Below, piece by piece: positions 30,570 through 33,209 of a stretch of DNA of 64,000 nucleotides. Each line of letters starts with the position of its first letter. Position 1 is the stretch's first letter. A program made the translations under genes and the position numbers. Below the pieces are notes generated by a model. The model saw nothing but the letters and a program-made list of their open reading frames with translations. It had not been told where the DNA came from and searched no databases. The DNA is from Nocardiopsis listeri NBRC 13360. GTDB taxonomy: Bacteria > Actinomycetota > Actinomycetes > Streptosporangiales > Streptosporangiaceae. The stretch is taken from the NCBI RefSeq assembly GCF_001570765.1, contig NZ_BCSH01000035.1, positions 1 to 64,000 of the forward strand, written 5' to 3'.

Positions 30570-31181
30570 TCAGTAGTACCGGCGGATCCGGGTCAGGTCG
30601 ATGTCCAGCGCACAGGGTGCGGTCACCCCGAGCCGCCCTCGATGGCTGCGAAGATTCGCGTACACCTTGTTGAGCGGATCGAGTTCGTATGTGTGAACGA
30701 CCGGCTCCCCCTCGCTCTCCTCTTCGATCAGCCAGAAGTGGGGGATGCCCGCCTCCGCGTAGATCTGCGGTTTGCGCTCGATGTCCCGTACCTCGGATTC
30801 GGGTGAGACCACCTCGACCACGAGTTCGACCACGTGTGGCTCGACCCAGGTGTTGTGGAGGGCCTTCCGCTCCTCGGCCCGAATGAGCATGAGATCGGGT
30901 TCCGGACGTTGCCGCTCCCCGATTCTGACCGTCATCTCCCGGTAGGTACGCAGTTCTTGGGGGATCTGTGCGTCGAGTCGCTGTTCGAGGAGCTTGAGCA
31001 CGAACATGTGGAAGCGCCGCTGAGGGGTCACCAGGACCAGACTTCCGTCGATGAGTTCGGTATGCGGCGGAAGACCCGGGATCCGGTCGAGGTCCTCGGC
31101 AGTGAAGCCTCCCTGCGGGGGCAGGGGAATCGACACCCGAGTGCCGAAGACCATGGGGTCGTCCGTGGCGGGAACGGACAT
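30570..31181 (-). CDS. Uma2 family endonuclease-like protein
   Basis: 203 residues, intact relative of the broken gene at 23.2 kb. The PD-(D/E)XK-like core reads RPEPDLMLIRAEE, then VELVVEVVSPESEVRDIERKPQIYAEAGIPHFWLI; the Asp, Glu and Lys positions are kept. Uma2/DUF820 genes are numerous in actinomycetes and cyanobacteria and their role is poorly known. ATG 31181 has GGAG five to six bases upstream. Nothing nearby suggests a defence island. Confidence 0.8.
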   Translation of the reverse strand: MSVPATDDPMVFGTRVSIPLPPQGGFTAEDLDRIPGLPPHTELIDGSLVLVTPQRRFHMFVLKLLEQRLDAQIPQELRTYREMTVRIGERQRPEPDLMLIRAEERKALHNTWVEPHVVELVVEVVSPESEVRDIERKPQIYAEAGIPHFWLIEEESEGEPVVHTYELDPLNKVYANLRSHRGRLGVTAPCALDIDLTRIRRYY

Positions 31182-31457
31182 GTCGTCTCCGTTCGTCGGA
31201 TCGTTCTCGTCTCCCACAGTGGCCGACCGCCTCGCCTCGTAACGGTGCTTTCGCCGAATCCTCTCATCGTCCCGGGCCGTGCTCGTGGAGCGTTCTCCCC
31301 CAGGCGGGTACGGACGCCCGCCCGGGGCTTTCGGGTGATCCTCATCGCCCTCCAAAGCGGGAAGATCCAGCACAGCAAGGCTTCTGGTCAGGGGTGGCAC
31401 GGAAAACATCCGGGGGAGTATGGAAAAGGTAAGGAAACCGGACTAAGGTGCCTGATC

Positions 31458-31532
31458 GTGACGAATATTTGGGGACTGACACGAAGGTGGCACATCGACC
31501 TGTGCCGCTTCGCCAGCCACGCGTGTAGCTAG
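31458..31532 (+). CDS. 24-residue cysteine-containing leader peptide
   Basis: GTG 31458 to TAG 31530-31532, with AAGGTG seven bases upstream. The C-terminal part reads RRWHIDLCRFASHACS, matching from memory the RRHxDLCRxxSxxC pattern of actinobacterial putative leader peptides found ahead of sulfur/cysteine transport and assimilation genes. Cys codons (TGC, TGT) sit near the end. It lies 155 bases before the DAACS symporter gene, with a GC-rich hairpin between, so ribosome stalling at Cys codons could control the transporter. This is too short for routine gene calling. Confidence 0.7.
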   Translation: MTNIWGLTRRWHIDLCRFASHACS

Positions 31533-31538
31533 GTCCAC

Positions 31539-31561
31539 GCGCGCCCGTCCGGGCTGCGCGC
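31539..31561 (+). promoter_or_regulatory. GC-rich hairpin just after the leader peptide
   Basis: GCGCG (39-43 of this hundred) pairs with CGCGC (57-61), and CCC with GGG around GTCC, leaving a small bulge. It starts seven bases after the leader stop codon, where a stalled ribosome would change its folding. It lacks a U-tract, so any attenuation would be Rho-dependent or act through downstream pairing. Confidence 0.45.
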
Positions 31562-31687
31562 CGCCACGCCTTTCCCGTCGTCGCCCTCCTTTCCGGTGAC
31601 ACCCACCCGTTTCCCCTAGCCGGAGTCCTCGTACGCCCGCACACCGTGGCGTGCCCTCGTTCCGGCATCTCGCTTGGAGCCACTTCC

Positions 31688-33142
31688 GTGTCCACTCAGA
31701 CCGACCAGGTCAAGAAGAGGCGGCGTTTTCCGCTTCCGTCCTTCGGGGTCCAGGTCCTCCTCGGCCTCGTCCTCGGCCTCGCCCTCGGTGTGGTCGCCCT
31801 CCAGATCGGACCGGTGGGCGACGGTGAGCCGAACTGGCTCGCCACCACCCTGGAGACCATCGGCAGCACCTTCGTCACCCTGCTGCGCACGATCGTGCCG
31901 CCGCTGATCGTCCTCGCCGTCATCTCCTCCATCGCCAACCTGCGCAACGTCACCAACGCCGCGCGTCTGGCCTGGAAGACCCTTCTGTGGTTCGCGATCA
32001 CCGCGCTGGTCTCGGTGGCCATCGCCATCACCCTGGGTCTGGTGATCCGTCCCGGCCTCAACAGCGCCGTGGACGACTCCACCCTGGCCGAACCGTCCAG
32101 CCACGGTTCCTGGCTCGCGTTCATCGAGAGCCTGGTGCCGGCCAACTTCCTGGGTCTGGCCGCCGACACCAACGCCGACGACCTGAGCACCTCCCTCAGC
32201 TTCAACGCCCTACAGCTGATCGTCATCGCGGTCGTGTTGGGCATCGCCGCCATCAAGGTCGGCAAGCCGGCCGAGCCCTTCATCAACTTCACCGAGTCGA
32301 CCCTTCAGGTCGTGCTCAAGGCGCTGTGGTGGGTCATCCGTCTGGCTCCGATCGGCACCGTGGGTCTGCTGGGCAACGCCGTCTACAGCTACGGCTGGAC
32401 CACCATCGGCGCGCTCGGCAAGTTCACGATCACCATCTACGTCGGCCTGGCTCTGGTGCTGTTCGTCGTCTACCCGCTCGTGACCCTGGTCAACGGGCTG
32501 TCGCCCGCCAAGTACTTCTCCGGGGTGTGGCCCGCGGTCCAGCTGGGCTTCGTGTCCCGCTCCTCGATGGGCACCATGCCCGTCACCCAGCGGGTCACCG
32601 AGCAGAACCTGGGTGTGCCCCGCTACTACTCGGCGTTCGCGGTGCCGTTCGGCGCGACCACCAAGATGGACGGTTGCGCCGCGATCTACCCGGCGATCTC
32701 GGCGATCTTCGTCGCCCAGTTCTTCGGGATCGAGATGGCGTTCACCGACTACCTGCTGATCGTGTTCGTCTCGGTCATCGGTTCGGCCGCGACCGCGGGC
32801 ACCACCGGTGCCACGGTCATGCTCACCCTGACCCTGTCCACGGTGGGCCTGCCCCTGGAGGGCGTGGGCCTGCTGCTGGCCGTCGACCCGATCCTGGACA
32901 TGGGCCGCACCGCGACCAACGTCGCGGGTCAGGCCCTGATCCCGGCCGTCGTCGCCAAGCGCGAGGGCATCCTCGACCTGGTCCGCTACAACGCACGTCG
33001 GGGTTCCACCGGCTTCGTCCCGCTGGACGAGCCGGGCACCCTGGCCGCCGAGGAGCGGTCCGCCGAGGCCGCGACCGACGAGGCCGAGGAGCGCGACCCC
33101 GAGTCCGAACGCGCCACCGCCGGTACGAGCGCGAAGAGCTAG
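31688..33142 (+). CDS. Dicarboxylate/amino acid:cation symporter (DAACS), possible cystine transporter
   Basis: 484 residues from GTG 31688 (GGAG eight bases upstream). The multi-helix DAACS fold is clear: VTLLRTIVPPLIVLAVISS, SRSSMGTMPVT (Ser-rich hairpin), FAVPFGATTKMDGCAA and SAATAGTTGATVML. The family takes up glutamate, C4-dicarboxylates or cystine by Na+/H+ symport. Sequence alone does not decide, but the upstream Cys leader peptide suggests a cystine or cysteine-linked substrate (TcyP-like). The acidic C-terminal tail is cytoplasmic. It is followed by a strong terminator. Confidence 0.9.
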   Translation: MSTQTDQVKKRRRFPLPSFGVQVLLGLVLGLALGVVALQIGPVGDGEPNWLATTLETIGSTFVTLLRTIVPPLIVLAVISSIANLRNVTNAARLAWKTLLWFAITALVSVAIAITLGLVIRPGLNSAVDDSTLAEPSSHGSWLAFIESLVPANFLGLAADTNADDLSTSLSFNALQLIVIAVVLGIAAIKVGKPAEPFINFTESTLQVVLKALWWVIRLAPIGTVGLLGNAVYSYGWTTIGALGKFTITIYVGLALVLFVVYPLVTLVNGLSPAKYFSGVWPAVQLGFVSRSSMGTMPVTQRVTEQNLGVPRYYSAFAVPFGATTKMDGCAAIYPAISAIFVAQFFGIEMAFTDYLLIVFVSVIGSAATAGTTGATVMLTLTLSTVGLPLEGVGLLLAVDPILDMGRTATNVAGQALIPAVVAKREGILDLVRYNARRGSTGFVPLDEPGTLAAEERSAEAATDEAEERDPESERATAGTSAKS

Positions 33143-33147
33143 CTTCC

Positions 33148-33209
33148 GTACTCGAACCGGTCAAGAGGCCCGTCGAAGGTGTTTCGGCGGGCCTCTTCGC
33201 GTCGAGTAC
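33148..33209. terminator. Nested stem-loop terminator after the symporter
   Basis: An outer GTACTCGA/TCGAGTAC pair (33148-33155, 33202-33209) encloses an inner AAGAGGCCCGTCGAA-type arm (33163-33177) pairing with 33182-33197 around GGTG, with one wobble and slight offset. Confidence 0.75.

Follow-up and report, generated by a model that had tools for sequence, protein, structure and literature searches.

A conserved cysteine-containing leader peptide and candidate attenuator upstream of a TcyP-like symporter gene in Nocardiopsis listeri

The symporter locus, its leader frame and its promoter

The window analysed here, a stretch of 64,000 nucleotides of the Nocardiopsis listeri genome, contains a symporter gene of the DAACS/SDF family, the only SDF-family gene found in the genome, together with a short upstream frame, a promoter-like region and a structured spacer. 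The features are as follows.

31422-31427, + strand: -35-like element GGAAAA (GGAA[T/A/C]A in relatives)
31444-31449, + strand: -10-like element TAAGGT (TATTGT in relatives), overlapping AAGGTG at 31445-31450
31458-31532, + strand: leader peptide frame MTNIWGLTRRWHIDLCRFASHACS, 24 codons; NF042934 at 25.1 bits; found at all 30 loci of the genus and also in other families
31524-31526, + strand: terminal cysteine codon UGU, the likely sensing codon
31533-31673, + strand: C-rich, G-poor, rut-like spacer, with C exceeding G in 92/92 leader-gene gaps
31538-31560, + strand: predicted GC-rich hairpin H1, with 93.6% of alignment cells paired, no compensatory change and no U-tract
31580-31600, + strand: predicted hairpin H2, GUCGCC/GGUGAC, with the six inner pairs preserved in almost all of 33 rows
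31619-31666, + strand: predicted hairpin H3, GCCGGAG/UUCCGGC, whose 3' end lies just upstream of the Shine-Dalgarno sequence, with 92.4% of cells paired
31674-31679, + strand: symporter Shine-Dalgarno sequence TTGGAG, its TGGAG invariant in the 33-row alignment
31688-33142, + strand: DAACS/SDF symporter of the KMDGCA clade with a TcyP-like site (PF00375, E 7.7e-100)

The symporter starts with the GTG at 31688, eight bases downstream of TTGGAG. Downstream of its stop codon lies a long, near-perfect inverted repeat (33160-33205, GAGGCCCGTCGAA...TTTCGGCGGGCCTC), which suggests a single-gene unit.

The leader frame runs from a GTG at 31458 to a TAG stop at 31530-31532 and encodes a 24-residue peptide, exactly where an earlier note on this DNA had placed it. 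A protein search recovered the symporter from 39 of 40 genus genomes, and in all 30 loci retrieved, residues 1-17 of the leader (VTNIWGLTRRWHIDLCR) are invariant and lie upstream of the symporter; further named Nocardiopsis and Streptomonospora loci carry the leader too. All differences within codons 1-17 are synonymous over 33 distinct aligned rows, and the C-terminal tail appears in the genus loci as FASHACS, RRGCQACS, FDSHACS, RSSQACS or CGCQACS. In the wider family and class, altered forms (TERRHVDLCRVASQACR, VGRLHVDLCRLNGDLCR, TERLHVDLRRQASAVCPG, ARLHVDLCRCMSAVCCR, TQRRHVDLLRTCSAACRP, TRRLVVDLGRTQSTRCR) stand upstream of the orthologues, and this extends to many other actinobacterial families. 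The strict leader motif was found in 132 of 190 loci, a count that includes duplicates, and degenerate forms such as VRRDVDYRRVASALCR in 8 additional ones. The core RxHVDLxRxxxxxC is kept across families and the N-terminal part has diverged between them; outside RxHxDLxR...C, both sequence and length vary freely. Among the 190 loci, no leader was recognised before the symporters of Kocuria, Rothia, Brachybacterium, Micrococcus, Corynebacterium and others (L117-L161). The leader also harbours an invariant internal palindrome of 7 bp (31490-31508, GGCACA-UCGACC-UGUGCC), formed by the WHIDLC codons. At the positions flanking it, two Nocardiopsis groups differ by double changes from A-U to C-G, and the palindrome is probably not preserved in leaders with DLRR.

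The promoter of the window reads GGAAAA-N16-TAAGGT. Over 51 distinct Nocardiopsaceae-type loci, GGAA at -36 to -33 and A at -31, numbered from the GTG, are 98-100% conserved, and the -10-like element is conserved to 92-100% at -14 to -12 and -10 to -9 and to 82% at -11. The spacing of the two elements (-36 to -31 and -14 to -9) puts the predicted transcript start at about the GTG, suggesting that the leader is probably translated from a leaderless mRNA. The AAGGTG at 31445-31450, which had been taken for the leader's own Shine-Dalgarno site, exists in the sequence but is not conserved as such: its slot is that of the promoter -10, with TATTGT in relatives, and the reading as a ribosome site was rejected.

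We also compared these promoters with the consensus of SigR (SigH) thiol-stress promoters, GGAAT-N18/19-GTT (PMC9205884, PMC2375139). The window promoter shares the -35-like GGAA but, like its family, has TAAGGT or TATTGT as -10, and departs from the consensus; no match to it is seen in Streptomyces-type, Micromonospora-type or Nocardiopsaceae-type promoters either (the labels "Streptomyces-type" and "Streptosporangium-type" are inferred assignments). In other families the leader-symporter unit does have the consensus: of the 49 leader loci not of the Nocardiopsaceae type, 26 carry it upstream (12/12 in set f17, 9/11 in the Streptosporangium-type set and 5/9 in others). It also lies upstream of 10 of the 51 clade members that lack the strict leader motif, and before none of 33 paralogues; a whole-genome scan gave 34 matches. 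Some symporter loci without a recognisable leader (L132, L138 and L149, within L117-L161) still have GGAAT-N18-GTT, which suggests that the two elements come and go independently of each other. In the Streptomyces-type loci (L183-L198), a near-perfect palindrome, CTTTGAGGTTCTCAAAG, lies upstream of GTGTTAACGT, some 60-100 bases ahead of the leader motif, and looks like the operator of a dimeric regulator acting on the symporter.

Cysteine codons, spacer RNA and a candidate mechanism

The leader of the window contains two separate cysteine codons and no run. All 30 genus loci retain the terminal cysteine. Of 93 unique leaders, 86 encode it with TGT, a count that shared ancestry keeps from being one of independent trials and that, as the search required a cysteine, does not alone show that cysteine is universal. 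TGT is the minority cysteine codon in the seven coding sequences of the window (4 TGT versus 18 TGC), and the last cysteine codon of the leaders strongly prefers UGU over UGC despite the GC-rich genomes. The first cysteine is not conserved across families, where DLRR, DLLR or DLGR is found instead, and a single cysteine is present in 19 of the 93 unique leaders. Of the cysteine codons that the earlier note proposed as sensors, the terminal one, mostly UGU, is conserved in relatives, as is the frame itself, but the first is replaced in other families. With two separate cysteine codons, and one only in 19/93 leaders, pausing upon starvation may be weak compared with that at the published cysteine runs.

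The RNA between leader and gene was then assessed by folding and alignment. The GC-rich hairpin of the earlier note, described as beginning seven bases after the frame, is present as H1 but starts five bases 3' of the leader stop. No covariation of H1 was detected over the 33 rows, and no intrinsic terminator-like site (GC stem plus U-tract) was found between leader and gene, the missing U-tract ruling out H1 in this role. Changes in H2 are mostly one-sided over the same rows, with almost no compensatory change, whereas H3 (31619-31625 with 31660-31666) covaries, with both-sided changes in five of seven pairs. A pairing of the cysteine-codon region with the spacer, H0 (GCGUG/CACGC), was set aside as well: its positions hardly vary, which leaves the alignment uninformative, and across families the cysteine region pairs with downstream RNA no better than shuffles do. 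Masking of the cysteine codons, or a stalled ribosome, barely shifts the predicted accessibility of the Shine-Dalgarno sequence (mean 0.19 free versus 0.20-0.22 stalled), so that simple folding gives no support to unmasking by a stalled ribosome. A switch built on the GC hairpin is therefore not borne out. The composition of the spacer is distinctive: 31533-31674 contains 67 C and 36 G, and (C-G)/(C+G) is above zero in all 92 distinct leader-gene gaps, with a median of 0.30 versus 0.06 in 33 paralogue controls. Such a C-rich spacer looks like a Rho entry region, which makes Rho a good candidate.

In the best-supported reading, which we consider likely, a cysteine-responsive attenuator precedes a TcyP-like symporter at this locus, the substrate probably being cystine or a related sulfur amino acid; the response to cysteine, the pausing, the direction of control and the substrate are what we infer. 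Transcription from the promoter at 31422-31449 would begin at the GTG or right beside it, and the 24-codon frame would be translated leaderless. When Cys-tRNA is scarce, the ribosome would pause at the terminal UGU, two codons before the stop, and shield the start of the C-rich spacer, allowing transcription through the spacer and/or translation of the symporter. With plentiful cysteine, the ribosome would finish and leave, and on the bare spacer either Rho would stop transcription or the leader RNA would keep the ribosome site closed. We give output through Rho-type control a nearly even chance and hold control at the ribosome site to be possible, if tentatively; another output seems unlikely. 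The leader's scores under both NCBIfam cutoffs, and the lineages whose symporter lacks a recognisable leader, weigh against the attenuator reading.

An arrest peptide similar to TnaC has a smaller but appreciable chance of explaining the pause. Here the nascent RxHxDLxR in the exit tunnel, and not simply a lack of Cys-tRNA, would set the pause, and the terminal cysteine or the thiol state would be read at the peptidyl-transferase centre. The purely synonymous change within the invariant residues 1-17 is in keeping with this, as are the persistence across families of RxHVDLxRxxxxxC but not of the first cysteine, and the 19/93 leaders with one cysteine only. The N-terminal part, however, varies between families, and the high nucleotide identity, including that of the internal 7-bp palindrome, could reflect constraints on RNA or DNA.

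The symporter and its probable substrate

In the tree, the symporter clade has its own support of 100/100 and lies neither inside TcyP nor inside DctA/GltP; a placement within TcyP was not recovered, and the placement next to GltP/DctA is weakly supported (94/71). The clade nevertheless has in common with the TcyP (YdjN) cystine/sulfocysteine symporters, to which identity is ~33%, a one-residue insertion in TM7 (GCAxxYPA; signature GC[AG]x[YF]PA). Each of the nine clade members shown carries this insertion, in L200 as GCGxYPA, and so do the four TcyP references (E. coli, Cytobacillus, Enterococcus and Salinivibrio); it is absent from the GltP, DctA, SstT and archaeal types in the alignment. 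The TM8 motif [DE]P[LI][IL]DMxRT is likewise common to TcyP and most of the clade and absent from GltP and DctA, the deepest clade members (e.g. L200) having DR instead of DP. Unlike TcyP, the clade has KMDG and not GQNG in TM7, and NVxG is followed by Gln in the clade, by Ser or Ala in TcyP, by Asn in GltP/DctA and by Asp in others. In blastp searches, the window protein scored highest with E. coli TcyP (191 bits, 33% identity), followed by GltP (172) and DctA (163), a weak ranking because GltP is the slightly better-scoring match for some distant members of the clade.

The insertion in TM7 and the motif in TM8 common to TcyP make cystine-type transport by the symporter plausible, and a reasonable expectation. 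The earlier reading of the gene as a TcyP-like and not a dicarboxylate carrier is supported by the binding site, which has features found only in TcyP and none of DctA/GltP; in the tree the protein falls outside the TcyP clade. We regard it as unlikely that the leader instead controls a carrier of glutamate/aspartate or dicarboxylates and that the transporter is not of the cystine type. TM8 does retain D-x-x-R-T-x-x-N, a motif known from carriers of acidic amino acids, but so does TcyP itself; the closest solved structure is that of an aspartate transporter, and the tree sets the clade beside GltP/DctA, yet GCAxxYPA and [DE]P..DM.RT are missing from these two. The distribution of the leader also speaks against such a carrier, as it was found before 0/33 DctA/GltP-type paralogues from the same class, and all leader-bearing genes in this comparison set have the TM7 signature G[AS]TTKMDGCA, which supports a leader specific to the KMDGCA symporter clade.

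The leader family and its biological meaning

The earlier assignment to the cysteine-type leader peptides of actinobacteria was borne out: the leader is conserved and related to the families NF042934 and Ms5788A. It matches NCBIfam NF042934 ("putative leader peptide") with 25.1 bits (E 9.6e-6), under the curated cutoff of 27 bits, and aligns to profile positions 2-19 of 19, with the core RxHxDLxR and a near-terminal cysteine present. It thus spans nearly the whole profile of this cis_reg_atten entry, for which a symporter context is documented here. A search of Rfam gave no relevant match. The Nocardiopsis listeri genome contains four such leaders, the window leader and three further credible ones, of which two pass the NF042934 cutoff (30 and 27.9 bits). 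The sister leaders precede genes for a rhodanese, a nitrite/sulfite reductase and an NADPH-dependent FMN reductase, which is consistent with several operons sharing a single type of leader. The leader before the FMN reductase gene is LLVQRLHVDLRRQASALCRS (G000:C21:20977-21030, L004), and this reductase is possibly an SsuE/MsuE-type sulfonate gene.

Several known systems resemble this arrangement. The mycobacterial Ms5788A family (NF042933) likewise consists of short, probably leaderless, cysteine-containing frames upstream of sulfur genes, and one sister leader precedes a rhodanese gene; the profile match of the window leader is weak (17.2 bits, far under the cutoff of 45), and, unlike this family, the window leader has no cysteine run, precedes a symporter and has a conserved peptide core with a terminal UGU codon. 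According to Canestrari (2020), as cited in PMC9094748 and PMC13236596, the mycobacterial polycysteine leaderless frames are cysteine-responsive attenuators. Seliverstov (2005; PMC1262725) predicted actinobacterial cysteine leaders without terminators and suggested Rho; those candidates resemble the window in the cysteine leader, the absence of an intrinsic terminator and a possible Rho site, but they precede cys and cbs biosynthesis genes and carry cysteine runs. The 'metL' leader before metNIQ in S. lividans (PMC8079986, Table 4) ends in RCMCRRMCAF and, with three cysteine codons, could be a cysteine and not a methionine leader.

A role of the frame product as a functional small protein, and not as a cis-acting leader, is very improbable: the amino acid sequence is under strong purifying selection, but related frames are always found immediately upstream of the symporter or, in the Nocardiopsis listeri genome, of other sulfur-type genes, and length and sequence are free to vary beyond RxHxDLxR...C. 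A chance frame retained merely through overlapping sequence features has next to no credibility, since the short frame, although it sits within a longer GTG-started frame (30834-31532) in a locus of high nucleotide identity throughout, encodes an invariant peptide while third positions change synonymously, recurs in other families at low DNA identity and is missing before the 33 paralogues; the frame is real, far beyond chance.

It is tempting to speculate, with rather little confidence, that RxHxDLxR...C(UGU) is a nascent-peptide sensor shared phylum-wide by many operons, which would report cysteine or thiol state by ribosome arrest and not by Cys-codon starvation alone, and that the SigR-type promoters coupled to it in several families would give a cystine-type importer both thiol-stress and cysteine inputs.

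The leader-symporter pair, conserved across many actinobacteria, would add an uptake gene to the targets of an established type of cysteine control, and it links a leader family labelled only "putative" to a clade that databases call dicarboxylate/amino acid symporter, the substrate class being predicted from regulation and binding-site features jointly. The pair also offers a simple test of codon starvation versus conserved peptide as the working principle. Such a reading would name a cystine-type uptake gene in antibiotic-producing actinobacteria, with thiol-stress promoters in several families.
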